The notes under the pieces: model-generated | Databases searched by the model: none | Told to the model about the DNA's origin: nothing | The model's input: the letters and a program-made list of their open reading frames with translations, nothing else | Shown: positions 3,259 through 54,562 of the stretch, one piece after another | How the letters are laid out: every line of letters begins with the position of its first letter | How positions within the stretch are numbered: the stretch's first letter is position 1 | Made by a program: the position numbers and the translations under genes | Assembly: GCA_003217735.2 (NCBI GenBank) | Contig: CP031585.1 | Coordinates: 3,211,501 to 3,275,500 of the forward strand | Source of the DNA: Marinibacterium anthonyi | GTDB lineage: Bacteria > Pseudomonadota > Alphaproteobacteria > Rhodobacterales > Rhodobacteraceae | Direction of reading: 5' to 3' | Length of the DNA: 64,000 bases

Positions 3259-3291
3259 CGGGCGCCGCCCCCGTCAGGTCGGCGGCGCCCG
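3259..3291 (-). promoter_or_regulatory. Intercistronic GC hairpin after binding-protein gene
   Basis: A perfect 11-bp inverted repeat (CGGGCGCCGCC pairing 3259-3269 with 3281-3291, 11-nt loop) begins 15 nt after the stop of the binding-protein gene and precedes dppB. No T-run follows in the reading direction, so a rho-independent terminator is unlikely. An RNA-stabilising or partial-attenuation role is inferred from similar elements in other ABC operons. Equivalent hairpins follow the three other binding-protein genes in the window. Confidence 0.75.
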
Positions 3292-3306
3292 GTTGTCAGG
3301 ACGGGA

Positions 3307-4860: not shown

Positions 4861-4990
4861 CACGCGTCTCTCTGTTGGGTCTGTTGTCGGTCTTGCCTTT
4901 GTTCGTATTGGCCGCACCGATGGGCTTCGGGACGGCAGGGGCCCTGACGGGCCGGGTTCATCGGGTCTTGGTCTTGGGTGGTGACAGGCG
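4861..4990. other. Spacer between deacetylase and binding-protein genes
   Basis: This 130-bp gap is T/G-rich on the plus strand (pyrimidine/A-rich on the coding strand) and breaks an otherwise tightly overlapped operon. It has only a weak GGCCC-TGAC-GGGCC hairpin and no convincing terminator. It could hold a secondary promoter for the transporter half, but no clear -35/-10 pair is visible. Confidence 0.4.
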
Positions 4991-5881: not shown

Positions 5882-5900
5882 GTGTCAGCTCCTTGGATCC

Positions 5901-6650
5901 TCAGGGAAAGGGATGGCCGGTGACGGGCAGGACCTGCCCGGTGATGAACCCCGCCCGGTCCGACGCCAGAAAGGCGCAGGCGGCGGCGATATCGGACGGA
6001 TCGCCCAGACGGCGCAGGGCGATGTTGGCGACCATGCGGGCCTGGCCTTCTTCGCCGTAGCCGTCCCAGTTGCGTTCGTAATCGGGCGATGTCCGCATGA
6101 AGCCCGGCGCAATGGAATTCACCGTGATCCCGAAGGGCCCGAGTTCCAGCGCCATCTGCCGGGTCAGGCCGATCAGCCCGTGCTTGGCGGAACAGTAGGA
6201 TTGCACGCCGGTCAGGCTGGGCTTCAGCCCCGCGCCCGAGGATATGGTGACGATCCGCCCCGACCTGCGCGCCTTCATCGCCGGGATGACCGCGCGCATC
6301 AGGTTCAGCGCCGACATCACGTTGCCGTCGTAGATCGACAGCCATTCGGCATCCGTCACCTGTTCCAGCGGTTTCATCTGCTGGCCGCGCACGCCACCGG
6401 CGGCATTGACCACCACGTCCGGGGCAAGTGTGCCGAAGCGGCCCTTCACCGCCTCCAGGTCGCCAAGGTCGATGACCTCGGTCCGTGCGCCGGGGTGGGC
6501 GTCGGCGAACCGCGCCAGGTCGTCGCCCAGGATATCGGCGGCCACCACGTCGGCGCCGGCGGCCAGGAATTCCGCCGCGATGCCCGCGCCGATGCCGCGC
6601 GCCGCGCCGGTGACCAGCACCGTCTGGCCCGAGAAATCGAAGCTGATCAT
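5901..6650 (-). CDS. Short-chain dehydrogenase/reductase (SDR)
   Basis: This 249-residue classical SDR has the NAD(P)-binding TGAARGIG at about residues 14-21, NAAGG, the catalytic Ser in ISSGAG, and the YCSAK (YxxxK) motif. DILGDD after the second strand suggests an Asp that favours NAD+. The start at 6650 gives an ATGA overlap with hyuB; the frame runs further upstream inside hyuB but without SDR sequence. It probably oxidises or reduces an intermediate of the Hyu pathway. Substrate unknown. Confidence 0.88.
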   Translation of the reverse strand: MISFDFSGQTVLVTGAARGIGAGIAAEFLAAGADVVAADILGDDLARFADAHPGARTEVIDLGDLEAVKGRFGTLAPDVVVNAAGGVRGQQMKPLEQVTDAEWLSIYDGNVMSALNLMRAVIPAMKARRSGRIVTISSGAGLKPSLTGVQSYCSAKHGLIGLTRQMALELGPFGITVNSIAPGFMRTSPDYERNWDGYGEEGQARMVANIALRRLGDPSDIAAACAFLASDRAGFITGQVLPVTGHPFP

Positions 6651-39761: not shown

Positions 39762-41429
39762 TCAGATGTGGAATTCCACGCCCGCCGCCGCAAGCCCGCC
39801 GCCCATCGCCGACACGGTTCCGTCGGCCCGCCAGCAGGCGGCGCCCGTCATTTCACCGCTGGCGTCGAAAGCGATCATGTTCATGCCGCCGCCGATATGG
39901 GGCACCAGCGTCACCTCGTGCCCCATCGCTTCCAGCGCGGGCTTGTGATGGGCGTATCCGGGTTCCAGTTCGACATGCGCGCCTTCGGTCCAGATCCGGG
40001 GCGCTTCGACCGCCTGCTGCGGGGTCATGGCGAAATCGATCATGTTGACGATGGCCTGCATCGCCGAGGGAAAGATGCGCACCGCGCCGGGAAGACCCAG
40101 CGCGAAACAGGGCGCGCCATCCTTCAGCACGATCATCGGCGCCATCGACGTCGGCACCCGCTTGCCCGGCATGACGGACAGCGCCTTGCCCGGGTGGGGA
40201 TCGAAATTGTACATGTAGTTGTTGGGGATGATGCCGGTGCCCGGCACCATGAACCGCGCGCCGAACAGGCCGTTGATCGTATGCGTCGCCGCCACGATCC
40301 GCCCGTCGCTGTCGGCCACGGTGACATGGGTGGTGTTGCGGCTTTCGTATCCGGGGGGCACGTCGGTGGCCCCGCCAAGCGGCCGCATCCGGGAGCGGCA
40401 GTGTTCGGCGTAGGACTTGGACACCAACCGTTCCACGGGAATGTCGACGAAATCCGGGTCCCCGGAGGCCGCGCGGCGGTCTTCGAAACCGATGCGGATG
40501 ACCTCGGCCAGAAGATGCAGGCGCTCGGGGCTGTCGAAGCCCATGGCGCTCAGGTCCCAGCCTTCGAGCATGTTCAGCATCTGCGCGACATGCACGCCCG
40601 ACGACGCCGGCGGCGGGGGGCCGACGATATCGTGGCCCCGGTAGGTGGCGAAGATCGCGTCGCGCTGGCGGGCGGTGTATGTTTCCAGGTCCGCCAGCGT
40701 CACCGTCCCGGCGTCGTCCCCGCCGGTGGCAAGCCGGTCGACCAAAGCCTGGCCAAGCGCACCGCCGTGAAGGGCCCGGGCCCCTTCGGTGGCGATCAGG
40801 CGCAGGCTTTCGCCGTAATCGCCCTGCACCAGCCGGTGGCCCGGCTGGGCAGGTCTGCCCCCCGGCAGGAAAAGCGCCGCGATCACCGGGTCGTTGGCCA
40901 TGTCCGCGGCGTGGCGGTCGATGTTGGACGACAGGTAGCGGGTGATGGGAAAACCGCCTTCGGCCAGCCGGATGGCGGGGGCGATGACGTCGGCAAAGGG
41001 CAGCGCGCCGTGACGGCTGTGCATGTCGCACCAGCCGCGCAGGTTGCCGGGAACGGCCACGGCCGACGGGCCGACGAGGTTGCGACGGCCGGCGGTTTCC
41101 ATGTAGTCGGGCAGGCTGTCGGACACGGGTTGGTACATGTCGGGCCGCGCGGCCGCGGCGGCCTGCGACAGGCAATCGTAGACCGTGTGCGTGCCGTCGG
41201 GCAGGCGCAGATGCGCCACGCCCCCCCCTGCGATGCCGACCATCATCGGTTCCACCACCGTCAGCGCCAGCAGCGCCGCGACGGCGGCATCCACCGCATT
41301 GCCGCCGAACGCCAGCATCTCGTGCCCCGCCGCCGAGCCCAGCGGATGGTTGGTCACGACGACGCCCCGCGACCCGCTTGCGGGCGATTTCCGGCAGGTG
41401 AACGGCAGCGGCATGGGATCGGAGGGCAT
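39762..41429 (-). CDS. Gamma-glutamyltransferase family protein (Ntn hydrolase)
   Basis: The 555-residue protein has the autoprocessing site RNTTHVTVADSDG; cleavage before Thr366 would give the catalytic small subunit. GGNAVDAAVAALLALTVVEP, GPPPPASSGVH and GFEDRRA are also typical. No signal peptide is visible, so it is cytoplasmic. The start at 41429 has AGGAAG 7 nt upstream; an ATG five codons later is an alternative. With a PuuB/OrdL-like oxidoreductase next to it, hydrolysis of a gamma-glutamyl amide is plausible, but many such homologues are general acylases. Confidence 0.87.
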   Translation of the reverse strand: MPSDPMPLPFTCRKSPASGSRGVVVTNHPLGSAAGHEMLAFGGNAVDAAVAALLALTVVEPMMVGIAGGGVAHLRLPDGTHTVYDCLSQAAAAARPDMYQPVSDSLPDYMETAGRRNLVGPSAVAVPGNLRGWCDMHSRHGALPFADVIAPAIRLAEGGFPITRYLSSNIDRHAADMANDPVIAALFLPGGRPAQPGHRLVQGDYGESLRLIATEGARALHGGALGQALVDRLATGGDDAGTVTLADLETYTARQRDAIFATYRGHDIVGPPPPASSGVHVAQMLNMLEGWDLSAMGFDSPERLHLLAEVIRIGFEDRRAASGDPDFVDIPVERLVSKSYAEHCRSRMRPLGGATDVPPGYESRNTTHVTVADSDGRIVAATHTINGLFGARFMVPGTGIIPNNYMYNFDPHPGKALSVMPGKRVPTSMAPMIVLKDGAPCFALGLPGAVRIFPSAMQAIVNMIDFAMTPQQAVEAPRIWTEGAHVELEPGYAHHKPALEAMGHEVTLVPHIGGGMNMIAFDASGEMTGAACWRADGTVSAMGGGLAAAGVEFHI

Positions 41430-41515
41430 GGGCGGACTTCCTGTTGAGACAGGCGCAGTCAATCGCTTTGGCGCCCGGTCCACAAGGACTTAACGATGGC
41501 GGCGCCCTGCCCCGC

Positions 41516-42820
41516 TCATGCCTGTTTGCGCGCGGCCCTGCGCAGGTCGCGGGCGTCCTGAAAGGCGTACCAGCGGGTCAGCAGCGCCGCGCCCTGGCGC
41601 GAGAACGGGCTGAACGGGACCTTGTCGAAGGGCAGATCGTCCAGCGCGGTGTCCGCCCCCGGCAGGCCCAGGATGCGGCGGGCCAGCTTGCTGCCCAGGT
41701 AGACGCTGCGGGTGACGCCGGAACCGCAATAGCCCCCCGCCAGCCAGACGCCGTCGACCTTGCCCAGGTGCGGGCTGTGGTCGGGGGTATAGGCGATGCG
41801 GCCGGACCAGGAATGATCGAAGCGGATGCCGTCGAGCTGCGGAAAGACCCGGCGCACGGATCTGGCAAAGACCTGCTTGCGCGCCTCCGGCCCTGCCCCC
41901 GGCGGGCCGAGGCGACCGCCAAAGATGAAGCGGCGGCCATCCGGCGTGGGGCGGAACCACATGAAGATGCGCCCGGATTCGCCGAACATCCGGCCCCTGG
42001 GAGTCAGGTCCGCCATCTGGTTGGGCGACAGGTCCTCGGTGGCCACCACGAAGGTGTCGATGGGCACCACGCGCTGCGCCATGACCGACGTGCGGCGGTC
42101 GGCATAGGCGTTGGTGGCGATCACCACCTCGCCCGCGCGCAGCGCGCCCTTTGGGGTGGAAAGCTCGACCTCGCCGCCATCGCGCCGCATCGCCGTGACG
42201 GGGCAATCCGGGATCAGGGTGGCCCCGGCCTCGGCCGCGATACGGGCCAGTTCCAGCACCAGCTTGCGGGGATGCACGCCGCCGTCACGGTGATAGACCA
42301 CGCCGCCCTGGTAGAAATCGCTGCCGATCTCGGCGCGCTGATCCTCGCGCGCGACCATGTCGGATTGCAGCCCCAGGTTCTTGCGCAGCCAGTCGCATTC
42401 GCGCGCCATGGCGTCCCGGTCGGCAATCGTGCGCGCGCCCCGGAAGCGGCCGCGCATCTGCAGGTCGCAGTCCAGCCCTTCGTCGGCGATCAGCGCCTCG
42501 AAATGATCCAGCGCCAGCAGGCCCTCGCGCATCAGCGCCAGCGTCTTCGCCTCGCCGTACCGCGCCAGCAACCCGGCGGACCCCAGCTTGTGAAAGCTGG
42601 GGCCGACCATGCCGCCATTGCGCGACGACGCCCCCGCCCCGATCCGGCCCGCATCGAAGACCACCACGCTGCGCCCCGCCCGCGCCAGCGTCAGCGCGGC
42701 GGACAGCCCGGTGAACCCGCCCCCGACGATGGCAACGTCGACCCGTTTCGGCAGCGGTTCGCCACTGGCATAGGCCGGTTCCGGCTGGTCGACATCCCAG
42801 AAGATCGGCGGGCAGCGCAT
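41516..42820 (-). CDS. FAD-dependent oxidoreductase, DAO family (PuuB/OrdL-like)
   Basis: The 434-residue flavoprotein has the dinucleotide-binding loop VAIVGGGFTGLSAAL near residues 29-43, the FAD segment SRNGGMVGPS, and a C-terminal GRIAYTPDHSPHLG followed by GGYCGSGVTRS. Relatives oxidise secondary amines such as gamma-glutamylputrescine, sarcosine or D-amino acids. The ATG is 2 nt after the stop of the DUF1028 gene; the longer upstream frame lies within that gene and is ignored. Its likely role is amine oxidation of the imported compound. Confidence 0.87.
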   Translation of the reverse strand: MRCPPIFWDVDQPEPAYASGEPLPKRVDVAIVGGGFTGLSAALTLARAGRSVVVFDAGRIGAGASSRNGGMVGPSFHKLGSAGLLARYGEAKTLALMREGLLALDHFEALIADEGLDCDLQMRGRFRGARTIADRDAMARECDWLRKNLGLQSDMVAREDQRAEIGSDFYQGGVVYHRDGGVHPRKLVLELARIAAEAGATLIPDCPVTAMRRDGGEVELSTPKGALRAGEVVIATNAYADRRTSVMAQRVVPIDTFVVATEDLSPNQMADLTPRGRMFGESGRIFMWFRPTPDGRRFIFGGRLGPPGAGPEARKQVFARSVRRVFPQLDGIRFDHSWSGRIAYTPDHSPHLGKVDGVWLAGGYCGSGVTRSVYLGSKLARRILGLPGADTALDDLPFDKVPFSPFSRQGAALLTRWYAFQDARDLRRAARKQA

Positions 42821-42822
42821 GG

Positions 42823-43584
42823 TCAGTCCCTCAGCGTCCAGTTCGCCCGCTGGCGGGCGGTGGGAAAGCGGGCTTCCAGCCCCAGTTCGGCGATCCGGTC
42901 GATGCTGGCCTCGAAGAGGGCGCGCATCACCGGCAGCGCGTCGGGTTCCAGCGCCACCTGCCGCAGCATCCGGGACCGGTCGCCATAAGCGGTGTAAAGC
43001 GTGCGCAGATCCTCGATCGCGCGGCCATCCGATATGTCGACGCGCAGGTCCATGGCGTCGATCCCGTGTTCCCCCGTCACGCGCAGGGCGGCGGATTTCA
43101 TCGCATCGCGCACCTCCCCCCCCGCGTCGCGCCCGGCCTCCAGCGCCAGCATCAGGCGTTCGCCCAGCGGGGCCGTGGCGGCGCCGACGAAGGCGGCGGC
43201 CATGGCGTCGGTCACCCGGTCGTTGTCCAGGATATTGCCGATGGCCAGGCAGTCGGTGTCGATGCTGTGGGTATATATCGAATACATCCGCCGCCCGTGG
43301 TAGACGGCGGCGTGCCCCCGCGCATCCAGCGCGCCCAGCTGGCGCCATTCGATATCGTCCGAAGACGACGATACGCGGGCCACGGTGTCATCGGCGGTCT
43401 GCCCGTCGGCCAGCAGGGAAATGCCCAGATCGCCCAGACGGCTGTCGGTGCGGTGCTGGGACAGGAACGCGCCCTTGCCATGGGCCAGCCGCAGACAACG
43501 GCTGCCCACCGCCAGGTCGGACGTGGTGACGGCGCCGCCGAAGGCGCCGGTGCGGGCGCAGCGCCCGATGATCGAATAGGTCAT
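42823..43584 (-). CDS. DUF1028 family protein (Ntn-hydrolase-like)
   Basis: The 253-residue protein begins MTYSIIGRCARTGAFGGAVTTSD, the typical DUF1028 start, and includes the region around DNDRVTDAMAAAF and RLMLALEAGRDAGGEVR. DUF1028 has an Ntn-hydrolase-like fold but no firmly assigned reaction. A second member at 51065 lies beside a D-carbamoylase on the other side of lysR, so the family is likely tied to the amide/amine catabolism of this locus. The N-terminal Thr after Met could become the nucleophile (inference). Confidence 0.85.
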   Translation of the reverse strand: MTYSIIGRCARTGAFGGAVTTSDLAVGSRCLRLAHGKGAFLSQHRTDSRLGDLGISLLADGQTADDTVARVSSSSDDIEWRQLGALDARGHAAVYHGRRMYSIYTHSIDTDCLAIGNILDNDRVTDAMAAAFVGAATAPLGERLMLALEAGRDAGGEVRDAMKSAALRVTGEHGIDAMDLRVDISDGRAIEDLRTLYTAYGDRSRMLRQVALEPDALPVMRALFEASIDRIAELGLEARFPTARQRANWTLRD

Positions 43585-43602: not shown

Positions 43603-44970
43603 TTACGCGGGATCCGTTGCCGGCAATGGCACGCCGCGGTCTTCCGCCGCGAACTTGCGCCACAGGCTTTCCGTCGCCGCCTGCCCTTCGGCAACCACCC
43701 GCGTTTCGTCCATGGTCGTCAGCTGGCGGTTGCGCATCAGGAAACGGCCATCCACCATCGTGTCGCTCACCACCCCCGGGTGTCCGTAATGCAGCAGGTT
43801 CGAGATGGCCGAAACGCGGGGCGTCATCACCGGGGTCATCAAATCGAACACCGCCAGGTCAGCCTTCATGCCCGGCGCGATGCGCCCGATGCCGGGGTGA
43901 TCCAGCGCCCTGGCCGCATTGACGGTGACATAGTCGAACACCGTCTGCGGCGACGGGGTCACCGACCGCCCATAGGCGCCGCGATGCAATGTCATGGCCA
44001 TCTTCATGGCGTGAAACATGTCCTCGGTCATGTTGTCGGTGCCAAGCGTGATCTTGACCCCGTGATCGAGGATCGCCTTCATCGGCAGCGGATGCGGTCC
44101 CTTGGCCGACATGGATGCCGGACAATGGGCCAGCCAGGTGCCGGTTTCCGCCAGCCGCGCCACGTCGGTTTCGGTGCAGAAGGTCCAGTGGACGGCCAGC
44201 AGGTCATCGCCCAGGAAATCGTTGCGGTCCAGGTATTCGGTGGAGGTGCAGCCGTGCAGCTTTTCCACCTGTTCCTTTTCGCTGATGATCTGGCTCAGGT
44301 GCACCGTGCGGCGCAGCCCGTGCCGGCGCGCCAGGTCTTTCAGCTGGCCCAGCATCCAGGGGCTGCAATTGTCCGGCGCATGGGCCGCGATCATCACGCG
44401 CACGCGGTCGTTTTCCGCCCCGTGGAAGCGGTCGATCAGGGCGCGGGTCCGATCCAGGAAGGTCTCGCCGAAGTCGCGATCGAAACGGTATCCGCCGCCC
44501 GCCACCTCGGTCGTCACGGCATCTGCACAGCTTTCGGCCAGCCACAGGCGCATCCCCGTTTCGATCATCGCGGGCGCGTAATCGGCCACGTGGCGCAGGG
44601 GGTCGACCATGGTCGTTGTGCCGGACCGGATCGCCTCGGCACAGGCAAGTTTCGCGATGGCGGCGCGTTCGGACGGGTCCAGCAGGTAGGAGGCCGGAAC
44701 CATGTACTGGTAGACCAGGTTGCCTTCGATATCCTCGATCGTGCCGCGCAGGGCCAAGAGCACCGCGTGCGTGTGCGAATTGATCAGGCCGGGCGACACC
44801 AGCCGCCCGATCATGTCGACCGGTTCGAAACCGGCGAAATCGGTGCCGGTGAACGTTTCCGGCAAGGCGACGATGCGGTCGTCTTCGATGGCGACGTGGG
44901 CGGCACGGATTTCGGGCGTCCCGCTGTCGTGGCTGACGATGCGGGCGTTCTTGAGCAATAGGCGGGTCAT
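43603..44970 (-). CDS. Amidohydrolase of the TRZ/ATZ/SsnA type
   Basis: The 455-residue metal-dependent hydrolase has the HxH metal site LINSHTHAV, a second His in VHLSQ, AVHWTFC, and the metal Asp in LGTDNMTED. The N- and C-terminal composite beta-sandwich is visible (LLLKNARIVSHD...; GMKADLAVFDL). Members deaminate or dechlorinate s-triazines, guanine, S-adenosylhomocysteine or related amidines. It overlaps the potC-like gene by ATGA, so its substrate is probably what the Pot importer brings in. Confidence 0.88.
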   Translation of the reverse strand: MTRLLLKNARIVSHDSGTPEIRAAHVAIEDDRIVALPETFTGTDFAGFEPVDMIGRLVSPGLINSHTHAVLLALRGTIEDIEGNLVYQYMVPASYLLDPSERAAIAKLACAEAIRSGTTTMVDPLRHVADYAPAMIETGMRLWLAESCADAVTTEVAGGGYRFDRDFGETFLDRTRALIDRFHGAENDRVRVMIAAHAPDNCSPWMLGQLKDLARRHGLRRTVHLSQIISEKEQVEKLHGCTSTEYLDRNDFLGDDLLAVHWTFCTETDVARLAETGTWLAHCPASMSAKGPHPLPMKAILDHGVKITLGTDNMTEDMFHAMKMAMTLHRGAYGRSVTPSPQTVFDYVTVNAARALDHPGIGRIAPGMKADLAVFDLMTPVMTPRVSAISNLLHYGHPGVVSDTMVDGRFLMRNRQLTTMDETRVVAEGQAATESLWRKFAAEDRGVPLPATDPA

Positions 44971-45743
44971 GAGCGGCGCAGCGCCCCTATGGCGGTGATG
45001 ATCAGGGTCAGGATCACCAGCAGCGTCGCCACCGATGCGATGGTCGGGTCGATGTTGTCCTGGATGCCTTCCCAGATCTTCTTGGGCAGGGTCGTCACCC
45101 GGCGCACGGTCAGGAACAGCACGCCGACGATTTCGTCAAAGCTGACGATGAAGGCGAAGACGAAGCCGGTCAGCATGCCGGGCCGTGCGGCGGGCACGAT
45201 CACCGCCATCACCGTCTGGCGGATGGATGCGCCCAGGGACCGGGCGGCGCGCGGGATGTTGCGATCAAGGTTGGCCAGTGCCGCGAAGACCGAGATCGAC
45301 ACGTAGGGCAGCGCCAGCAGCGTATGGGCCAGGATCACGCCGAAGTCGGTGTCGATCAGGCCCAGCTTGACCCAGAAGCGGTAGAAGCCCAGCGATTGCA
45401 CCACCGGCGGCACCAGGATCGGCGTGATCAGCACCCAGCGGGCGATGGCGGACGCGCGGTCGGACAGGAACCAGCAGCCGATGGCGAAGCTGGTGCCAAG
45501 CGCCGTGGCACAGGCGGCCACGACGGTGCCGATCCAGATGCTGGTCCACGTCGCCTTGAGCCAGTCGGGCGAGGCGAAGTAATTGGCGTAGTGCTGCAGC
45601 GACAGGTGATCCTTGGGCAGGCCGATATAGCTGGTGTCGGTCAGCGACACCGGGATGACCACCAGCAGGGGCAGCACGAGGAAGGCGGTGACCAGCCAGG
45701 CGCCGGTCTGAAAGAAGATCCGAAAGGGCGATACGGGCATCAT
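44967..45743 (-). CDS. Polyamine-type ABC transporter permease, PotC-like (second system)
   Basis: The 258-residue membrane protein has six predicted helices, the EAA loop AARSLGASIRQTVMAVIVP and the PotC hallmark VSFDEIVGVLFLT. The start at 45743 gives an ATGA overlap with potB and a double Met; the upstream frame is not translated. It forms the channel with the PotB-like protein. Confidence 0.9.
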   Translation of the reverse strand: MMPVSPFRIFFQTGAWLVTAFLVLPLLVVIPVSLTDTSYIGLPKDHLSLQHYANYFASPDWLKATWTSIWIGTVVAACATALGTSFAIGCWFLSDRASAIARWVLITPILVPPVVQSLGFYRFWVKLGLIDTDFGVILAHTLLALPYVSISVFAALANLDRNIPRAARSLGASIRQTVMAVIVPAARPGMLTGFVFAFIVSFDEIVGVLFLTVRRVTTLPKKIWEGIQDNIDPTIASVATLLVILTLIITAIGALRRS

Positions 45744-46582
45744 TTCCGCTCCAGCAGTGCATTGCGCAGGTTGACGAAGCGGGCGGCCACCAGCAGCACC
45801 AGCGCCGTCGCGATCAGCAGGATCACCGACAGGGCCGCGCCCAGGCCCCAGTTCAGGAATTCCTGGATCTGGTAGGTGATGTATTCCGAGATCATCAGCA
45901 CGCGGCCCCCGCCCAGCAGCGCCGGCGTGATGTAAAAGCCCAGCGACAACACGAAGACCAGCAGCGCGCCCGACAACACCCCCGGCAGGGTCTGGGGGAA
46001 ATAGACCTGCCGGAAGGCGGTCCATTCAGAGGCGCCCAGCCCCCGCGCGGCCTTGACGTAAGCGTCGGGAATACCGCGCATGTTGGTCAGCATCGGCAGG
46101 ATGGCAAAGGGCAGCATGACGTGGATCATGGCGATCAGCACGCCGAATTCATTGTGCATCAGGCGCAGCGGGCTGTCGATCAGCCCCGCGTTGCGCAGCG
46201 TGTCGTTGACAAGGCCGGACCGGCCCAGCAGCACGATCCAGCTGAACGACCGGATCAGGACCGACACCCAGAACGGCAGGATCACCAGCGCCAGCATCAG
46301 CGGTGTCAGGCGCCCGGCGTAATTGCTGATGGCGTAGGCCACGATATAACCCAGCAGGACGCAGCCGATGGTGGTCACCAGCGCGACGCGGAAGGTCAGC
46401 ACGAAGCTGGTCTTGACCGCGCTCGAACCGGCCGCCTTTGCGAAATTGCCGAAGCCCGCGGCCGGTTCGGTGACCGAGATCTGCCAGATGCCCAGCACGG
46501 GAACGATGTAGAAGACGATCATGATCGCCAGGGCCGGCAGGATCAGCATCCAGTATTGGGTCTTTTCACCAAGGCGCGGCAT
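45740..46582 (-). CDS. Polyamine-type ABC transporter permease, PotB-like (second system)
   Basis: The 280-residue protein begins MPRLGEKTQYWMLILPALAI, has helices typical of PotB, and the EAA loop KAARGLGASEWTAFRQVYFPQ. The frame stays open upstream through a repeat and hairpin, but those residues are Asp/Pro-rich and not permease-like, so 46582 is the start. It lies between the binding protein and potC-like genes. Confidence 0.9.
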   Translation of the reverse strand: MPRLGEKTQYWMLILPALAIMIVFYIVPVLGIWQISVTEPAAGFGNFAKAAGSSAVKTSFVLTFRVALVTTIGCVLLGYIVAYAISNYAGRLTPLMLALVILPFWVSVLIRSFSWIVLLGRSGLVNDTLRNAGLIDSPLRLMHNEFGVLIAMIHVMLPFAILPMLTNMRGIPDAYVKAARGLGASEWTAFRQVYFPQTLPGVLSGALLVFVLSLGFYITPALLGGGRVLMISEYITYQIQEFLNWGLGAALSVILLIATALVLLVAARFVNLRNALLERK

Positions 46583-46601
46583 GGCATCTCCGGGATCGTC
46601 T

Positions 46602-46674: not shown

Positions 46675-47808
46675 TCAGTTGATCAGCGCGTCGATGTATT
46701 TCTCTTCCGCCGACACCTGGTTCTTCGCGTACCATTCGTCGTTGTAAAGGATCTGCGTCGCCAGGTTTTCCGGGCTGGTGGGGTTCCAGGGCGCCAGTTC
46801 GGCGGGCACCAGGGCCGCCGCCTCCGGGTTGATCGGCGCCGAGCCGATCAGTTCCAGCCATTTGACCTGCAGGGCGGGATCCTGGGCATGGGCGATGAAC
46901 TTCATCACTTCCTCGGTGCCGGCCGGGTTGTCCTTGGGTACGACCCAGATACCCGGCGCCATGACGCCGCCGTTGAACGACACGGTAAAGGTGCCTTCGT
47001 CCATCTGGTCCTTCAGCAGGTGCGCGCGGGTCGACCAGATGTTGCCGATGGCGACCTCTTCCTGCAGGAACAGGTTCTGGCTGTCGCTGCCCGATCCCCA
47101 GACGATGATGTTGTCGCGCAGCTCGCGGAACTTGGCGATGGCGGCGTTGATGCCATCATCCGTCCCCAGCACCTCGTAGACCTCGTTCAGGGGCACGCCC
47201 TGTGCCATCGTGGCGCTTTCCAGCATGCCGCGCACCGACTTGCGGAAGGTGCGCATGCCGGGGAAGTCCTTGACGTTCCAGACATCCGCCCAGCTTTGCG
47301 GCACGTTGCCGCCCAGCATCTTGGGGTTGGTGGCCAGCACGTAGGAATAGACGTAGTTGCCGACGCCGTTGGTATAGGCCGTGCCGTCCAGCACCTTGGA
47401 CTTGTCGACGATGGAATAGTCGATGGGCTGGGTCATGCCCTGCTGTTCCAGGATGATGGCGGACCCCGCGCCGCTGTCGCACAGGTCCCAGACCACGGCA
47501 CCGCTTTCGACCATCGCCCGGATCTTGCCCGCCGAAGGGCCCGATCCGTCGACAACCACCGGAATCCCGGTTTCGGCGGTGTAGGTGTCGCACATCACTT
47601 CCTGCAGCACGTCCTTGGCGGTGCCGCCCCAGTTGACGACGACGATCTCTTTCGCCTGGGCCATGGCGCGCGAATTCAGCGCCGGCAGAATCCCCAGCGC
47701 GCCCATCGCCGCGACAAAGCCGCGACGGGTCAGCCGCCCCTGCCTGTAGCGTTCGACCGCGATCTCCGCGATGTCGCGCTTGGCTTCGAAATCGGTGGTA
47801 TCGGTCAT
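46675..47808 (-). CDS. Polyamine-type ABC transporter substrate-binding protein (PotD-like, Tat-exported)
   Basis: The 377-residue protein has a long N-terminal region with a twin-arginine signal (LTRRGFVAAMGALGILPAL, cleavage near RAMAQA), then EIVVVNWGGTAKDVLQEVM typical of PotD-like proteins. The start at 47808 follows the family's beginning; 35 more upstream codons are open but not signal-like. It pairs with the PotA-like gene upstream and the PotBC-like genes downstream. The ligand is unknown, likely an amine or amidine handled by the amidohydrolase and FAD oxidoreductase. Confidence 0.88.
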   Translation of the reverse strand: MTDTTDFEAKRDIAEIAVERYRQGRLTRRGFVAAMGALGILPALNSRAMAQAKEIVVVNWGGTAKDVLQEVMCDTYTAETGIPVVVDGSGPSAGKIRAMVESGAVVWDLCDSGAGSAIILEQQGMTQPIDYSIVDKSKVLDGTAYTNGVGNYVYSYVLATNPKMLGGNVPQSWADVWNVKDFPGMRTFRKSVRGMLESATMAQGVPLNEVYEVLGTDDGINAAIAKFRELRDNIIVWGSGSDSQNLFLQEEVAIGNIWSTRAHLLKDQMDEGTFTVSFNGGVMAPGIWVVPKDNPAGTEEVMKFIAHAQDPALQVKWLELIGSAPINPEAAALVPAELAPWNPTSPENLATQILYNDEWYAKNQVSAEEKYIDALIN

Positions 47809-47920: not shown

Positions 47921-48991
47921 TCATTCGGGGTTCAGCAGGACACAGGCGTCGCGGTCCCAGCCGACGCTGACGGGCAGGTCGGGAACCGGGGTGATGCCGC
48001 TTTTCCAGGTCGGGCAGGACACCAGCAGATCGCCCAGCGTCTCGTGCGTGACGATCACCTGGCAGCGTTCGCCCAGATAGCTGACCTGGCGCACGCGGGC
48101 GGGCAGGAATTCCTCGCCCGGGGCACCCAGGCGCAGCCGCTCCGGGCGCAGCGCGACCTTGGCGGCGCCGGATTTCGGCCCGGTTTCGGTGGGCATGGCG
48201 GCAAAGCTGGCGCCTTTCGCGGCGCACTGAAGCAGCCCGCCTTCGGTGCCGGTGACGGTCACGTCGATGAAGTTCGACTTGCCCAGGAAATCGGCGACAA
48301 AGGCGTTGACGGGGCGGTTGTAGAGTTCCCCAGGCTTGCCGTCCTGCTGGATCTTGCCGTCCTTCAGGATGACGATGCGGTCAGACATCGACAACGCTTC
48401 CTCCTGGTCGTGGGTCACGTAGATGAAGGTCACGCCCAACCGGTCGTGCAGCGCCTTCAGTTCCCACTGCAGGTCGGCGCGCAGCTTCTTGTCCAGCGCC
48501 GACAGCGGTTCGTCCAGCAACAGCACCTGCGGGTGGAACGACAGCGCGCGCGCCAGGGCCACGCGCTGTTGCTGACCGCCCGACAATTGCGACGGCATGC
48601 GGTCGGCGTATTGGCCCATCTGCACCAGGTCGAGACATTCGGCCACCCGCGCCGCGATCTCGGCGGCGGGTTTCTTGCGCACCTTCAGCGGGAACGCCAC
48701 GTTGTCGCGCACCGACATGGTCGGAAACAGCGCATAGCCCTGGAACACCATGCCGAAATCGCGGTGTTCGGGTGGCTGGCGGGTGATGTCGGTGTCACGC
48801 AGGGCGATGCGGCCTTCGTCCAGGGTGATGAACCCGGCGATGGCGCTCAGCAGCGTGGTCTTTCCGGACCCCGAGGGCCCCAGCAGCGTCAGGAACTCTC
48901 CGTCAGCGATATCCTGGCTGACATGGTCAAGCGCATGCACGTCACCATAACGTTTCACGGCGTTCTGAACGGAAAGGATGGGTGTGGTCAT
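47921..48991 (-). CDS. Polyamine-type ABC transporter ATP-binding protein, PotA-like (second system)
   Basis: The 356-residue ATPase has Walker [10 protein letters not shown], signature [15 protein letters not shown], Walker [13 protein letters not shown] and [11 protein letters not shown], with a C-terminal TOBE domain (VALRPERLRLG). It is the first gene of the nine-gene leftward operon that ends with the SDR. A LysR-box cassette shared with the divergent carbamoylase promoter lies 85 bp upstream of its start, so it is probably under the control of the adjacent LysR protein. Confidence 0.92.
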   Translation of the reverse strand: MTTPILSVQNAVKRYGDVHALDHVSQDIADGEFLTLLGPSGSGKTTLLSAIAGFITLDEGRIALRDTDITRQPPEHRDFGMVFQGYALFPTMSVRDNVAFPLKVRKKPAAEIAARVAECLDLVQMGQYADRMPSQLSGGQQQRVALARALSFHPQVLLLDEPLSALDKKLRADLQWELKALHDRLGVTFIYVTHDQEEALSMSDRIVILKDGKIQQDGKPGELYNRPVNAFVADFLGKSNFIDVTVTGTEGGLLQCAAKGASFAAMPTETGPKSGAAKVALRPERLRLGAPGEEFLPARVRQVSYLGERCQVIVTHETLGDLLVSCPTWKSGITPVPDLPVSVGWDRDACVLLNPE

Positions 48992-49075
48992 GAAATCCCC
49001 GGATCGGCTGGCAGGCCGGTCCCCGCAGGGGCGCGGCCGGTCACAGCGTCAGGGGAACACGGGCTGCCAATACAA

Positions 49076-49115
49076 TGAAATAAAATATTCGCCCATCAAA
49101 ATAATCCCAAGTTAT
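49076..49115 (-). promoter_or_regulatory. LysR-box cassette, left copy (pot operon promoter)
   Basis: Read on the minus strand, this 40-bp element starts with ATAACTTGGGATTAT (ATAA-N7-TTAT, containing T-N11-A) and after 10 bp continues with GAATATTTTATTTCA. It matches the right copy at 50037-50076 in 28 of 40 positions, with the same spacing. The box overlaps the lysR stop codon. Confidence 0.65.
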
Positions 49116-50032
49116 AGGCGCTGACCTGGCCGCCCCACGACCGGCACGTTGGCCGCCAGGTATTCCGCGACGAATTCCTGGAACTGGATCGCCAGGTTCG
49201 AGGTCGGGAACAGGTTCGACGTGATCGCGTGCAAATCCAGCGGCATCTCGGGTTCGGTGGGCCGGATGGCGATGTCGTCATTGACCTTGCCGATCAGCGC
49301 GAAGGTATCGACCAGCGCCACCCCCAGCCCGCTGCGCACCATCTCCAGCGCGGTCGCCGTGTGCCGCACCTCGCAGAAATAGCGCCGCTCCAGCCCCTGC
49401 GCCGAAAAAACCGCATCCACGGTCTGCCCCAGCGGCGTGTTGCTGGCGTAGGAGATGTGGCGCACGTGGTTCAGGTCGGTCACGCGGATCCGTTCGGACA
49501 GGGCCATTTCGTGATCCACCGGGCAGACGCACATCAGCCGGCCGCGCCCAAGAGTACGCACCGACAGGGCGGATCGGCGCGGGCCGGTGACCGACAGACC
49601 CAGATCGGCGCGCCCGCTCAGCAGGCGGCGGGTGATCTCCTCGATACTGCCCAGTTCGATGGAAATCTGCAGTTTCGGCCGTGTGCGCACGAAATCGGCC
49701 AGCACGCGCGGCAGGATGCCATGCCCGATCGACGGGGTCGCCACGATGTTCAGCCGCCCGATGGTGCCGCCGCGCAGTTCCTCGATGATGTTGGCGACGC
49801 GCTTTTGCTGCATGAACAGATGCTGCGCCTCCTGCGCGATATGCAGCGCCTCGGGCGTGGGGACCAGCCGGCCGTGTTCGCGTTTGAACAGGGGAAAACC
49901 CACCTGGTCCTCGGTATGGCGGATCATGTTGGAAACCGCCGGCTGGCTGACCGACAGCAGTTCGGCGGCGCGCGCCGTGGTGCCGACTTCGATGACGGTC
50001 GACAGGACTTCAAGCTGCCTGGCATTGATCAT
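49112..50032 (-). CDS. LysR-family transcriptional regulator
   Basis: The 306-residue protein has an N-terminal winged HTH (NARQLEVLSTVIEVGTTARAAELLSVSQPAVSNMIRHTE) and a LysR effector-binding domain (residues about 90-295). It is transcribed leftwards, between the pot operon and the D-carbamoylase. Its start lies 5 bp from one T-N11-A box (50037-50051), and its stop overlaps the other (49101-49115). It probably represses itself and activates both flanking operons in response to an amide or amine ligand (inference). Confidence 0.9.
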   Translation of the reverse strand: MINARQLEVLSTVIEVGTTARAAELLSVSQPAVSNMIRHTEDQVGFPLFKREHGRLVPTPEALHIAQEAQHLFMQQKRVANIIEELRGGTIGRLNIVATPSIGHGILPRVLADFVRTRPKLQISIELGSIEEITRRLLSGRADLGLSVTGPRRSALSVRTLGRGRLMCVCPVDHEMALSERIRVTDLNHVRHISYASNTPLGQTVDAVFSAQGLERRYFCEVRHTATALEMVRSGLGVALVDTFALIGKVNDDIAIRPTEPEMPLDLHAITSNLFPTSNLAIQFQEFVAEYLAANVPVVGRPGQRL

Positions 50033-50036
50033 TTCG

Positions 50037-50076
50037 ATAACCCAAGATTATTCGCATGGCATGAAATTTTATTTCA
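50037..50076 (+). promoter_or_regulatory. LysR-box cassette, right copy (lysR/carbamoylase promoter)
   Basis: ATAACCCAAGATTAT (ATAA-N7-TTAT, with T-N11-A) is followed after 10 bp by TGAAATTTTATTTCA, itself an inverted repeat TGAAAT-TTT-ATTTCA. The same two elements at the same spacing occur on the other side of lysR in inverted orientation. Confidence 0.7.
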
Positions 50077-50132
50077 CACTGATATTGCACCTGTCTAGCA
50101 ATGAAAGGAAACCCCGCCAAAAGGAGAGCCGG

Positions 50133-51068
50133 ATGAGCCGCAACGTCGTCTTCGCAGTCGCACAGATGGGGCCGGTTCACCTGGCCGACACCAAGGCGCA
50201 GACCGTCGCCCGCCTGGTCGACATGCTGCGCGAGGCCCATGGCCGCGGCGCGCGCTGGGTGACCTTCCCCGAACTGGCGCTGACCACCTTCTTCCCGCGC
50301 TACATCTACGACACGCCCGAAGACTACGACGCCTTCTTCGAGGAAGGCCTGCCGTCGCCCGCGATGGTGCCGCTGTTTGACGAAGCAAGACGGCTGGGCG
50401 TGGGGTTCTACCTGGGCTACGCGGAAAAGATCACGGAAGGCGGGGCCGTGCGGCGGTTCAATACATCGGTGCTGGTGGCGCCGGATGGCGCGATCCTGGG
50501 CAAGTACCGCAAGATCCACCTGCCCGGCACAAAGGATCCCATCGGGGATATCGAATTCGAACACCTGGAAAAGCGGTATTTCGAGGTCGGCGACCTGGGT
50601 TTCCCCACCTATCCCACCGATGACGGCCGCTTCGGCATGTGCATCTGCAACGACCGCCGCTGGCCGGAAACCTTCCGCGTCATGGCGCTGCGCGGGGCCG
50701 AGGTGTTCATGCTGGGCTACAACACCCCCACCCGCAACATCCACCATCCCGAACCGGCGCACCTGCGCGAATTCCATCACCGGCTGAGCCTGGAATCGGC
50801 CGCCTACCAGAACGCGGCCTGGGTGATGGCCGCCGCGAAATGCGGATCGGAAGACGGGTTCGCGATGATCGGCGGATCGGCCATCGTGTCCCCCACCGGC
50901 GAGGTCGTGGCCCGCGCGGCGTCCGAGGACGACGAGGTCATCACCTTCAGCTGCGACCTGGACCTGGGCGCCTATATCCGGCGGTCGGTCTTCGATTTCG
51001 CCCGCCACCGGCGGATCGAGCATTACGGGCCGATCACGTCGCAGACCGGGATCGAGGTGGACGAATGA
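50133..51068 (+). CDS. N-carbamoyl-D-amino-acid hydrolase (D-carbamoylase)-like nitrilase
   Basis: The 311-residue nitrilase-fold enzyme carries Glu47 (FPELALTTFFPR), Lys127 (KYRKIHLPG) and Cys172 (CICNDRRWPET), at the same numbers as in the well-studied Agrobacterium D-carbamoylase; FNTS and HLEKRYFEVGDLGFP are also shared. It should release a D-amino acid, ammonia and CO2 from an N-carbamoyl compound. AGGAG lies 6-10 nt before the ATG at 50133; the open frame upstream overlaps lysR and is ignored. No cyclic dihydropyrimidinase-type hydantoinase is seen nearby, so the carbamoyl substrate may be imported or made by another route. Confidence 0.87.
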   Translation: MSRNVVFAVAQMGPVHLADTKAQTVARLVDMLREAHGRGARWVTFPELALTTFFPRYIYDTPEDYDAFFEEGLPSPAMVPLFDEARRLGVGFYLGYAEKITEGGAVRRFNTSVLVAPDGAILGKYRKIHLPGTKDPIGDIEFEHLEKRYFEVGDLGFPTYPTDDGRFGMCICNDRRWPETFRVMALRGAEVFMLGYNTPTRNIHHPEPAHLREFHHRLSLESAAYQNAAWVMAAAKCGSEDGFAMIGGSAIVSPTGEVVARAASEDDEVITFSCDLDLGAYIRRSVFDFARHRRIEHYGPITSQTGIEVDE

Positions 51069-51736
51069 CCTTCTCCATCGCCGGCCGCTGCCCCGAAACG
51101 GGCGACATCGGGTTTGCCGTGACCACGTCGTCGGTCTGCGTGGGCGCCCGCGTGGGCGCCGTGGCCGAGGGCTGTGTCGTGTTCTCGCAGGCCCGCACCG
51201 ATCCGCGCCTGCACGCCGTGGGCCTGAAGGCCTGGGCCGAAACCGCCAGCGCGCAGGCGGCGCTGAATGCGATGCACACCGCCGCCGTCGCGCCGCACTG
51301 GCGGCAACTGGGCGTGCTGCCCGCCACCGGTGATGCGCTGCACCTGACCGGCGACAGCTGCCTGCCCCATTGCGGCGGGCTTGCGGGGGCCGACAGCCTG
51401 GCGCTTGGCAATTTCCTGGGCAGCGCCGATGTGCTGCCGTCGATGATCGAGGCCTTCGAAACCGGCACCGGGTCGCTGGCGGAACGCATGGTCGCCGCCC
51501 TGCGCGCCGGTGAAGCGGCGGGCAGCGAACGCGATCCCCTGCAATCGGCCGCCGTCGTCGTTCTGGGCGCCGAGGGGCTGAAGGACGTGGACCTGCGCAT
51601 CGACGCCTCGGCCGATCCGCTGGACGCACTGGCCGACCTGCTGGCCGACTGGCTGCCCAAGGCCCCGGCCTATCGGCTGCGCGCGCTTGACCCGGATGCC
51701 GCGCCGTCGTCCAGCAGCGTGGAACATTCGGGCTGA
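51065..51736 (+). CDS. DUF1028 family protein (second copy)
   Basis: The 223-residue protein begins MTFSIAGRCPETGDIGFAVTTSSVCVGARVGAV, as in DUF1028 proteins, and is co-translated with the carbamoylase (ATGA overlap). It is related to, but clearly different from, the copy at 42823. The functional link to carbamoyl or amide hydrolysis is inferred from position. Thr2 could act as an Ntn nucleophile if Met1 is removed. Confidence 0.85.
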   Translation: MTFSIAGRCPETGDIGFAVTTSSVCVGARVGAVAEGCVVFSQARTDPRLHAVGLKAWAETASAQAALNAMHTAAVAPHWRQLGVLPATGDALHLTGDSCLPHCGGLAGADSLALGNFLGSADVLPSMIEAFETGTGSLAERMVAALRAGEAAGSERDPLQSAAVVVLGAEGLKDVDLRIDASADPLDALADLLADWLPKAPAYRLRALDPDAAPSSSSVEHSG

Positions 51737-51788: not shown

Positions 51789-51862
51789 TATTCACCCCAG
51801 GATGTCCGCAAGCGCCCGATTGTGATATGCTGTCCCGGGTGCAGGTCTTGCGGGGCAGCAGC

Positions 51863-54562
51863 ATGGATATTCATTCGACGCCGAACCCATCGGACGCGGC
51901 CCCCTGGCCGGCCCCCTGGCCAGCCTCTGTCCATGCCGTCGCGGTTTCGGCCCAGAGCGAGACCGCGGGCGAACGACGGCCGGTGATCCTGTCGACCCAC
52001 GCGGCCGCGCCGTTCATCGGCCAGGCCCGGGGCAATGTCCTGGATTTCGACGACTGGGTGCGGATCGCACAGGATTACCTGCCGGCGCTTTCGGCGGTGT
52101 TCAAGGACCGGGCCCTGCCCTTCCTGCCGGAAAGCTGGATGGCTGCCCTTGGCCCGCACGGCAGCGGGCTTGGCTTTTCCTGGCGTCCGACGCACGCGGC
52201 GCGCAGCCCCCATGACCGCAATCCCGTCGTTTCGCACGTCCTTGAACGCGGCCCTGACCGGACGATCATCCTGGTGGCGGGCGATCCGATCGAAAGCGGC
52301 TTTGGCGTGCGCGTCGTCCTGCGGGTGCTGGATGAAACCGACCGGCTGCTGGCCATCACCTCGTTCGCGGCCCACCTGCCCTATGGCCCTTATGAAACGA
52401 CCCTTGTGATCGAAAACAACGGCACAGACTCGGGCCCGTTCGCCTACCCGTTCACGCCAGAGGATTTTTCCAAGACCATCGACGGCGTCCTGCAGGACAA
52501 CCTGTCGGACATCGCGCGGGATGCCGGACAGGCGCAGGACACGGTGCGGATCAAGGACCTGCGCCTTCTCGATCCCGCCCGCACAGGTCAGACCGGCCAT
52601 CTGTTCGAGGCGACGACCCTTGGCCTGATGAGCCACTTTCCCCATGGGCCCGAACCCGACCCGGCGGGCCAGGGCGTGGCCGCAAGGACGCGGTTCGGCT
52701 TTGCCGGCACGCCCCCGCAACTGCGGGAGCGCTGGCCGCTTCAGGCAAGCGCGCTGCCCGATGGCGGCGGGCGGGCGAACCCGGTGTTCGACGTACCGGT
52801 GTTTCGCACGGACCCGGCCTCCAACATGACCCTGCAGGATCCACCGCCCTACAATTTCGGCCAGTTCCGCCCGTCCGGCGATCTGAACGACGCCCGCGCG
52901 ACGGCCAATGTGCCCAACATCCTCAGGACCCCCCAGTTCGAGATCCGCACCTGCCCCGGCTTCGTGCAACAGGATGACGGTGGGCCCGCCGACGGCATTC
53001 GCAGGCTGAATTTCGACCCGGCCCACCCATACGTCGCGCGCAGCGACGATCAGTCCGCGGCCTCGGCCTTCGTGGCCTGCCGGTCCTTTTTCGACATGAT
53101 CGCCAGCTTCGGCATCGACGTCGCGTCGATCTTCACGCGGGCGAAACTGCCGCTGCTGGTGCATTACCGGTCCGGCATCCGGCCCGGATCCGGCAAGGAC
53201 GGGCGCACCGTCAATGCCCGGGTCGAAATCGAGCCGGTGGACGGCGAGCTGTCCGATCCGATCATCGGCCAGGTGCACATGTACCTGGCGCTGGCCAACC
53301 TGAACAAATGGCACCGGGACGTGCCCCCGAACGGCACCTTCGCGCCCCGCCCGGCCCAGCCGCTGGGCATCGCCAACAGCCGCCGCTGGGTCCATCACGA
53401 GATGGGGCATGTCCTGATCGCGGCCGCCCTGGGCGAGCTGGAGTTCCGGTTTGCCCACAGCGCCGGCGATGCGCTGGCGGCGATCATGGCCGACCCCACG
53501 TCGCGCGCGAACGAGGCCGCCCTCCACGGGCCCTGGGCCACGTTCCGGTTCCAGACCTTTCCCTGGGTCTTCCTGACCCGCCGGCACGACCGGTCGGTCC
53601 TGGCCGGGTGGAGCTGGAGCGGGTCGATTCACATGGACGTGCTGCGGACGCCCGAGAACGAGCTGCGCCGGCTGAAGGGCTATCATTCGGAACAGATCCT
53701 TTCGACGACGCTGTTCCGGCTGTATCGGGTGATCGGCGGCGACACGACCATTGGCGGCACCCCCATTGGCGGCACCCCCGCAGACCCGGATGTCGACAGG
53801 CGCCGGAAGGCGGCGCGGGTGGCGCTGTACCTGATCGTCCGCGCGATCGACAGTTTCGGCCTGTCGCCGCTGCGCGTGGACGAGTTGGAAAGCGCGATGA
53901 TCGACGCCGATGTCGGGCTGACAAGCCCCCTGGGATCCGCTCTTGGCGACATCTGGATCGGGGGGCTGGGGCACAAGGTCATCCGCTGGGCCTTCGAGGC
54001 GCAGGGCCTGCATCCGGCCGACCCCGCGCGCATCAACAACGACAAGGGCGCGCCGCCCGAGGTGGACCTTTACATTGACGACCGCAGGCCAAAGGTCGAA
54101 CCGACCGATGCCGGGGACGTGATCCACGGGCCCGGCACCTATGTGCCCGTCTCGTTGCACTGGGCGCAGGATGCGCAATGGCTGGGCGCGCCGACAGGCG
54201 ACAAGCATTTCGTATTGGGCAATCGCGGCACCCAGCCCGCGACGGGCGTCACCTTGCGCGCCTGGCGCGGCCATCTTGCCGGTGCAACCATCGTCTGGCA
54301 TCCGATTGCCATCGCCACACCCGCCGCCGCCAACGGGATCGCCCCGGGCGCACGGATCGCGCTGCCCCTTCCCGCCATCATCGACGCGGCCATCGTGCGG
54401 CTGCTGCTTGTCGAGGTCACGGCGCCCGCAGATCCGGCCAACAGCGACCCGGCCACAGGGTTCGCTTGCGCGATCCCGGCCGGCGGCCTGCCGCCCGGTA
54501 ACCGCGACAAGCTGACGGCGCTGGTCGCGAACGACAACAACCTGGGGCTTTTCTGGCTGTAG
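51863..54562 (+). CDS. Large unassigned protein with HExxH metalloprotease-like motif
   Basis: The 899-residue protein has no signal peptide or membrane helix. HEMGH lies at residues 512-516, and His532 in FAHSAGDALAA may be a further ligand; this resembles a zincin active site but fits no family I can name. N-terminal Pro/Trp-rich residues, an imperfect IGGTP repeat near 630 and a C-terminal beta-rich domain (about 730-895, VPVSLHWAQDAQWLGAP) are visible. The ATG at 51863 was chosen over one 12 codons upstream that has no ribosome site. It converges on a PAP2-like gene 23 nt away. Unknown function; a metallopeptidase is the best guess. Confidence 0.6.
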   Translation: MDIHSTPNPSDAAPWPAPWPASVHAVAVSAQSETAGERRPVILSTHAAAPFIGQARGNVLDFDDWVRIAQDYLPALSAVFKDRALPFLPESWMAALGPHGSGLGFSWRPTHAARSPHDRNPVVSHVLERGPDRTIILVAGDPIESGFGVRVVLRVLDETDRLLAITSFAAHLPYGPYETTLVIENNGTDSGPFAYPFTPEDFSKTIDGVLQDNLSDIARDAGQAQDTVRIKDLRLLDPARTGQTGHLFEATTLGLMSHFPHGPEPDPAGQGVAARTRFGFAGTPPQLRERWPLQASALPDGGGRANPVFDVPVFRTDPASNMTLQDPPPYNFGQFRPSGDLNDARATANVPNILRTPQFEIRTCPGFVQQDDGGPADGIRRLNFDPAHPYVARSDDQSAASAFVACRSFFDMIASFGIDVASIFTRAKLPLLVHYRSGIRPGSGKDGRTVNARVEIEPVDGELSDPIIGQVHMYLALANLNKWHRDVPPNGTFAPRPAQPLGIANSRRWVHHEMGHVLIAAALGELEFRFAHSAGDALAAIMADPTSRANEAALHGPWATFRFQTFPWVFLTRRHDRSVLAGWSWSGSIHMDVLRTPENELRRLKGYHSEQILSTTLFRLYRVIGGDTTIGGTPIGGTPADPDVDRRRKAARVALYLIVRAIDSFGLSPLRVDELESAMIDADVGLTSPLGSALGDIWIGGLGHKVIRWAFEAQGLHPADPARINNDKGAPPEVDLYIDDRRPKVEPTDAGDVIHGPGTYVPVSLHWAQDAQWLGAPTGDKHFVLGNRGTQPATGVTLRAWRGHLAGATIVWHPIAIATPAAANGIAPGARIALPLPAIIDAAIVRLLLVEVTAPADPANSDPATGFACAIPAGGLPPGNRDKLTALVANDNNLGLFWL
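53749..53778. repeat. 15-bp perfect tandem duplication inside the HExxH gene
   Basis: CATTGGCGGCACCCC occurs twice in a row, encoding IGGTP-IGGTP in frame. It looks like a recent slippage event that may vary between strains. Confidence 0.85.

Follow-up and report, generated by a model that had tools for sequence, protein, structure and literature searches.

As read from sequence, the window (the whole 64,000-nucleotide stretch of DNA analysed here) contains a regulon of the LysR type that is local in extent and has two promoters as its targets. Each promoter has a palindrome, IR1, and, at a fixed distance from it, a promoter-proximal ATTTC element. The 40-bp cassette composed of these two parts is very probably a two-part operator of the LysR-type protein encoded between its two copies, a protein that would activate the pot and D-carbamoylase operons in the presence of an inducer and probably governs a regulon of the hydantoin class. 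The regulatory device is an ordinary, textbook LysR device, whereas the set of genes under its control is less so.

Two inverted cassettes flanking lysR

The two copies of the cassette, 40 nt each, are located in opposite orientation at 49076-49115 (copy 1) and 50037-50076 (copy 2), and are detected as an inverted repeat with 70% complementarity in a repeat search. The positions of their parts and of the surrounding genes are listed in Table 1. A direct count gives 28 identical positions out of 40, which are distributed over IR1 (positions 1-15, 11/15), the spacer (16-25, 5/10) and the AT-rich part (26-40, 12/15). In dinucleotide shuffles of the two intergenic stretches, the best inverted 40-mer has a mean of 19.3 and a maximum of 25 identical positions, and none of 3000 shuffles reaches the observed 28. 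The paired inverted cassette of the original prediction is thus confirmed by the repeat search, the direct count and the shuffles. The box and the AT-rich element claimed to lie 10 bp apart are likewise present in both copies, each of which consists of ATAA-N7-TTAT, 10 bp, and an AT-rich element ending with TTTTATTTCA.

The full cassette pattern matches the window twice without mismatches, and 0.00 matches are expected even when three mismatches are allowed. In the 6,811,023-base genome, the two sites flanking lysR are the only exact matches and the only ones with fewer than three mismatches. A control pattern with the spacer shortened by one base gives just two matches, both with three mismatches. 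Copy 1 spans the lysR stop codon TAA (49112-49114), and copy 2 begins at 50037, separated from the lysR ATG (50030-50032) by four bases (50033-50036). Copy 1 therefore lies on the stop codon and copy 2 close to the start codon, as had been claimed, and the overlap with the stop codon looks incidental. When the 15 bases of the AT-rich element of the two window copies are compared with their own complement in one register, 12 of them are self-complementary in copy 2 and 6 in copy 1; the values for IR1 itself are 10 and 8.

Table 1. Predicted operator parts and genes of the proposed regulon in the window
Feature	Position	Strand	Sequence, evidence and remarks
IR1, pot-operon cassette	49101..49115	-	ATAACTTGGGATTAT (ATAA-N7-TTAT), LysR site of predicted high affinity; no variation at columns 1-4 and 13-15 among 19/19 pot-side rows
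AT-rich promoter-proximal element, pot side	49076..49090	-	GAATATTTTATTTCA; conserved core T33, ATTT 35-38 (C39 in 16/19)
Possible -10, pot operon	49056..49061	-	CGTGTT; cassette positions 55-60 read C[A/G]TGNT in the family; C55, T57, G58 and T60 each in 15/19; putative -10 assignment
IR1, D-carbamoylase cassette	50037..50051	+	ATAACCCAAGATTAT; 4 bases from lysR start codon, also placed for lysR repression
AT-rich promoter-proximal element, D-carbamoylase side	50062..50076	+	TGAAATTTTATTTCA
Possible -10, D-carbamoylase operon	50094..50099	+	TCTAGC; T60 and A61 invariant in 18/18 rows; putative -10 assignment
LysR-type regulator, 306 aa	49112..50032	-	HTH_1 (PF00126, 61.8 bits, cut-off 26.6) and LysR_substrate (PF03466, 134.6 bits, cut-off 28)
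Polyamine-type ABC transporter ATPase, first pot gene	47921..48991	-	family search
ABC transporter substrate-binding protein	46675..47802	-	ORF, conserved synteny; start codon chosen by the analyst
ABC transporter permease 1	45740..46600	-	ORF, conserved synteny; start chosen by the analyst
ABC transporter permease 2	44967..45830	-	ORF, conserved synteny; start chosen by the analyst
Amidohydrolase, TRZ/ATZ deaminase kind	43603..44970	-	family match; TRZ/ATZ-type models all below cut-offs
DUF1028a, Ntn-hydrolase fold by model	42823..43584	-	family match and structure model
FAD-dependent oxidoreductase (DAO type)	41516..42862	-	models matched below cut-offs, synteny; start uncertain
Gamma-glutamyltransferase	39762..41483	-	family match; 32 bp after oxidoreductase; doubtful regulon member
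N-carbamoyl-D-amino acid hydrolase (CN_hydrolase)	50133..51068	+	best PDB match 1fo6, E 2.9e-108; also 2ggk/1erz, E about 1e-108
DUF1028b	51065..51736	+	family match

Conservation of the cassettes and of their putative target genes

Relatives were collected by searching named genomes once with the LysR protein, which gives 20 loci with 61-88% identity and, together with the window, 21 loci with 42 promoter regions. Lineages were looked up for three organisms, of which Nisaea denitrificans and Tistlia consotensis belong to Rhodospirillales and Albimonas pacifica belongs to Rhodobacterales. The 21 loci are not independent of one another, with L003/L004 and L009/L010 being near-duplicates. The shuffled control matters in this comparison, because the scoring allows one base more or less and uses the consensus of the window as the reference. 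By this score the cassette is present in all 42 promoter regions, with real scores of 14-18 out of 18. When the same regions are shuffled (n=630 per side), 99% of the scores are 12 or lower, and the maximum is 15 on the pot side and 13 on the carbamoylase side, so that the weakest real score on the pot side (15) equals the best of the 630 shuffles. The cassette is exactly 40 bp long in 41 of the 42 regions, the exception being the carbamoylase side of L016, which has one extra base. When the 20 loci and the window are scanned over their full length with a stricter pattern, 35 of the 42 sites are recovered and none appears elsewhere; this pattern misses the pot-side sites of L009, L010 and L015 and the carbamoylase-side sites of L017, L018, L019 and L021. 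Conservation of the boxes in orthologous loci had been set beforehand as a point on which the original prediction stands or falls. The boxes, the 40-bp layout and the orientation towards both operons are found in all 21 loci, and the prediction is not refuted on this point.

The mean pairwise identity among 18 loci (L004, L010 and L016 being omitted) is 0.32/0.38 in the spacer versus 0.91/0.97 in the motif columns; because the rows are aligned on the motif, the comparison is tilted towards the latter figure. In the same set, a permutation test gives no sign that the two copies of one genome have evolved together, the observed value being reached by 595 of 5000 permutations. The start of the cassette is found 99-136 bp ahead of the ATPase gene, and 119-127 bp ahead of it in 17 of the 21 loci. 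In each of the 21 loci, 0-9 bp separate the carbamoylase-side IR1, a T-N11-A palindrome in a divergent regulator/target region, from the start codon of lysR.

A search by tblastn with the window proteins indicates that the pot ATPase, the binding protein, the permeases, the amidohydrolase, DUF1028a and the oxidoreductase form one syntenic block in the relatives, with D-carbamoylase and DUF1028b on the other side. The exceptions are L006, which has no D-carbamoylase ortholog beside lysR, L017-L019, which have no DUF1028b, L015, which is cut by a contig end, and L016, L020 and L021, which have no oxidoreductase ortholog in the stretch examined (26% match only in L016). D-carbamoylase adjoins the cassette in the window and in 19 of the 20 relatives. 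DUF1028a is present in 19 of the 20 relatives, the contig of the other one ending early, and DUF1028b in 17 of the 20, which supports the claim that two DUF1028 genes belong to one regulon. In L006 (Sulfitobacter undariae), the cassette is retained, the D-carbamoylase ortholog beside lysR is gone, and DUF1028b is the first gene. Behind DUF1028b, this locus (1513-8858) contains, without a change of strand, the second hydantoin module with its transporter, carbamoylase and racemase genes.

Membership of the gamma-glutamyltransferase gene, which was also part of the original prediction, is not supported. This gene has no match in the 20 loci, in a search that covered about 0.7-1.5 kb beyond the oxidoreductase gene, and is a doubtful operon member. 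D-hydantoinase directly follows the oxidoreductase in 6 of the 16 relatives with the oxidoreductase (L003-L006, L013 and L014), and the gamma-glutamyltransferase gene, which occupies this place in the window, looks like a local addition. On the other side, a 911-aa open reading frame (51827-54562) follows DUF1028b on the same strand; it has no Pfam match at E <= 0.001.

Proposed operator architecture and assignment to LysR

Column statistics were obtained from 19 pot-side and 18 carbamoylase-side rows; L004 and L010 (near-duplicates of L003 and L009) are omitted from both sets, and L016 from the carbamoylase-side set as well. When the rows are aligned on IR1, positions 1-4, 13-15, 33 and 35-38 are invariant on both sides, and position 39 is C in 16 of the 19 pot-side and all 18 carbamoylase-side rows. 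The spacer columns 17-21 contain 0.58 bits or less. At the pot-side spacer positions 22-24 (window 49092-49094, minus strand), GGG is conserved in 17, 15 and 16 of the 19 rows and is weakly shared by the carbamoylase side. The invariant T60 and A61 of the carbamoylase side lie within TCTAG. No sigma-70 consensus promoter is found in 48980-50140, where 0.3 is expected by chance, so that this result says little.

A distal palindrome and a second conserved part near -35 are thus held in a fixed 40-bp layout in 41 of the 42 regions, and the second (ATTTC) part would also be a protein site. The AT-rich element might instead be just the -35 element of each promoter, with IR1 alone serving as the LysR site. 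This alternative is rather unlikely. The element does lie at the place expected for a -35 element and is followed by conserved -10-like stretches, but it is spaced identically from IR1 in 41 of the 42 regions, whereas the -10-like stretch lies about 3 bp nearer to it in one promoter than in the other (cassette positions 55-60 versus 58-63), the -10 assignments being uncertain. If these assignments are right, a spacing that is constant towards IR1 and variable towards the -10-like stretch favours contact of the ATTTC element with the regulator over a plain -35 element. The element may serve both roles, LysR contact and -35.

This architecture fits known LysR-type operators. In such operators, a distal inverted repeat is located near -65, with additional repeats around -44 and -34, and the T-N11-A core is common to LysR-type sites (PMC5002191). 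OccR/occQ of Agrobacterium (octopine catabolism) is also of the LysR type, and OccR (5vvh) and the Rubisco operon regulator (5y2v) are the solved structures nearest to the window LysR by sequence, tied at E 1e-20. The OccR operator combines a distal inverted repeat of high affinity at -64 with weaker repeats closer to the promoter, a plan that the cassette fits; the distal site is the strongest, and the inducer changes occupancy and DNA bend (PMC5002191). The differences are that the OccR operator serves the occR-occQ intergenic region, whereas the window has a second copy beyond lysR for a second operon, and that the enzyme genes of the window point to hydantoin or N-carbamoyl compounds. The promoter-proximal sites of an OccR-like operator are themselves inverted repeats; the AT-rich element of the window, self-complementary in only one of its two copies (copy 2), may or may not be of this form, and the cassette is not classed as an OccR operator. 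CynR/cynTSX of E. coli shares with the window the 15-bp inverted repeats ATAA-n7-TTAT, which are centred at -66, -44 and -34 in CynR (PMC5002191), but differs in having one target operon opposite the regulator and other enzymes. PcaQ of Sinorhizobium meliloti is likewise a LysR-type regulator of an ABC transporter operon and has an ATA-N10-TAT site centred 65.5 bp upstream (PMC5002191), but it governs the uptake of protocatechuate.

In the mechanism that we infer, a LysR dimer would bind the palindrome IR1 (ATAA-N7-TTAT), whose centre lies about 60 bp upstream of the likely transcription start, and the second dimer of the LysR tetramer would contact the AT-rich ATTTC element, whose centre lies about 25 bp further downstream, beside RNA polymerase. 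With the inducer, the tetramer would activate two weak promoters, of which the left one would serve the pot transporter-amidohydrolase-DUF1028a-oxidoreductase genes and the right one the D-carbamoylase-DUF1028b genes. The occupied right-hand IR1 would hold down lysR too. Such autorepression fits, because this IR1 abuts the lysR start codon.

The pot operon could also be merely co-transcribed with lysR, and copy 1 would then be a leftover AT-rich stretch at the end of lysR. The two are arranged in the same direction in the window and in 17 of the 20 relatives. The window has no terminator-like site in 48980-50140, so that read-through from lysR is possible, which is a weak argument because only 0.7 sites are expected by chance. 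In the other three relatives (L016, L020 and L021), however, the pot operon is inverted and its ATPase gene is located 6-7 kb beyond lysR, and the cassette precedes the relocated ATPase gene and points at it (L016 17044-17083, L020 16107-16146 and L021 17012-17051). Furthermore, the distance between the cassette and the ATPase gene is steady, whereas the overlap of copy 1 with the lysR stop codon is variable, occurring in 10 of the 17 relatives with the gene order of the window. Co-transcription as the sole explanation is thus very unlikely, and copy 1 is most plausibly an operator that belongs to the pot operon rather than a feature of the lysR end, because the cassette is found before the first gene of this operon even when the operon is relocated. 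A third copy of the cassette is present in another genome, G134, on a 6353-base contig (G134:C4:309-348; L027 309-348), upstream of a second pot operon. The ATPase and the binding protein of this operon are 70% and 84% identical to those of the window, respectively, and are followed by a fragment only of permease 1 and then by D-hydantoinase (TIGR02033, 470 bits, cut-off 393) and hydantoin racemase (PF01177).

The genome of the window contains a second hydantoin operon (C1:906183-912355), which encodes an amino-acid-type ABC transporter, carbamoylase, D-hydantoinase and racemase. ATAATCTAAGATTAT is located 146 bp before its first gene (L041 4037-4051, C1 about 906037), and the AT-rich stretch that follows this palindrome is one base closer than in the cassette. 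Among 18 loci fetched for the first gene of this operon, a perfect ATAA-N7-TTAT is found within 420 bp upstream in nine by raw count. This operon was considered as a third target of the window LysR and is rejected as such: the palindrome is kept in three genomes (G258, G067 and G051) that have no ortholog of this LysR at E <= 1e-50. The palindrome alone is therefore not specific, and another LysR-type protein may act at the second hydantoin operon.

A different LysR-type protein might then bind the cassette as well, since the T-N11-A core is common to such sites and a related palindrome precedes the second hydantoin operon in genomes without a window-type LysR. This is highly improbable. All 20 relatives, which were collected through the window LysR, have the cassette beside lysR. 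In a survey of 295 genomes of the family, D-carbamoylase is found at E <= 1e-120 in nine, and all nine have a cassette match with two or fewer mismatches, which lies within 100 bp upstream of D-carbamoylase in eight. Eight of the nine also have a cassette where the pot side is expected, as judged by position. Only two of the nine (G138 and G149) add new evidence, because one is the window itself and six have cassettes identical to those of named loci. Cassette matches are found in 46 of the 295 genomes overall. The other 37 genomes contain 89 matches by a hand count, no two of which lie within 2 kb of each other and 61 of which come from 14 genomes where a backward control pattern also matches. 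A lone match with two mismatches thus means little, and the pairing of matches is what counts. Two extra unpaired matches with two mismatches occur in the carbamoylase group (G052:C44 and G138:C22); the surroundings of the latter, as read from open reading frames, contain nothing that seems to resemble the lysR-cassette regulon. Control of both operons by a single regulator, as proposed originally, is thus supported by the paired conserved operators, including those of the rearranged loci, and binding of the window LysR to them is the predicted step.

Chance similarity of two AT-rich intergenic stretches is a negligible explanation for the likeness of the two copies, both of which do have an A+T content of 70-72%, given that no shuffle attains 28/40, and it is already refuted by the conservation of the cassette in 42/42 regions.

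Probable hydantoin pathway and the DUF1028 proteins

The three families of the hydantoinase process genes (D-hydantoinase, D-carbamoylase and hydantoin racemase) are all found in the lysR neighbourhood across the relatives. Besides the six relatives in which D-hydantoinase follows the oxidoreductase, there is L021, whose carbamoylase and DUF1028b genes are followed in series by hydantoinase and racemase. D-hydantoinase is absent from the window, and the hydantoinase-racemase pair of its own genome is located at C1:910272-912355; no cassette that passes the patterns is found at this hydantoinase. Unlike the hydantoinase process genes, the genes are joined here to a polyamine-type transporter, a TRZ/ATZ-like amidohydrolase, an FAD oxidoreductase and two DUF1028 genes, beside one LysR. 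A regulon for D-hydantoins or N-carbamoyl-D-amino acids is suggested, because D-carbamoylase is present in the window and hydantoinase and racemase are present in the neighbourhoods of the relatives. The regulon probably serves the uptake and breakdown of 5-substituted hydantoins or N-carbamoyl-D-amino acids, and the inducer probably belongs to the hydantoin or N-carbamoyl-D-amino-acid class. A literature search on LysR control of hydantoinase/carbamoylase operons gave nothing that looked relevant; most subscription journals lie outside this search, and earlier work may be missed.

DUF1028a and DUF1028b are 38.5% identical over 218 residues. Both start with Met-Thr-[Phe/Tyr]-Ser, and none of the 34 DUF1028 proteins aligned (out of 38 available, with L004 and L010 left out) deviates from Met1-Thr2 and Ser4, so that Thr2 is a candidate N-terminal nucleophile. 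The AlphaFold model of DUF1028a (pLDDT 89.1) matches a solved DUF1028 protein, 2imh, in a Foldseek search. Weaker matches are a proteasome subunit (E 1.0e-4), HslV (2.3e-4) and glycosylasparaginase (1.6e-3), with query-normalised TM values of 0.32-0.44. By the model, the fold of DUF1028a is that of Ntn hydrolases of the proteasome/HslV/glycosylasparaginase kind, for which these matches are weak. Both DUF1028 proteins are likely to be Thr-dependent amidases, because Thr2 is invariant and the fold of the DUF1028a model is of the Ntn type. A search for DUF1028 or PF06267 found no papers within its reach, which leaves out most subscription journals. It is a tentative and somewhat doubtful proposal that LysR senses hydantoin or N-carbamoyl-D-amino-acid compounds and governs a natural hydantoin-degrading regulon in Alphaproteobacteria, in which the two DUF1028 proteins, as Thr-dependent Ntn amidases, would carry out a step of the pathway.

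The conserved operator pair provides a hard criterion for membership of one pathway. The set of genes that the operators join consists of the transporter, amidohydrolase, oxidoreductase, D-carbamoylase and two DUF1028 genes and, by way of the relatives, D-hydantoinase and hydantoin racemase. The role of DUF1028 thereby becomes directly testable, and LysR with its operators becomes a candidate inducible sensor for the hydantoinase process. If the proposal of a hydantoin sensor and Ntn amidases is true, DUF1028, a family of unknown function, would gain an assigned role.
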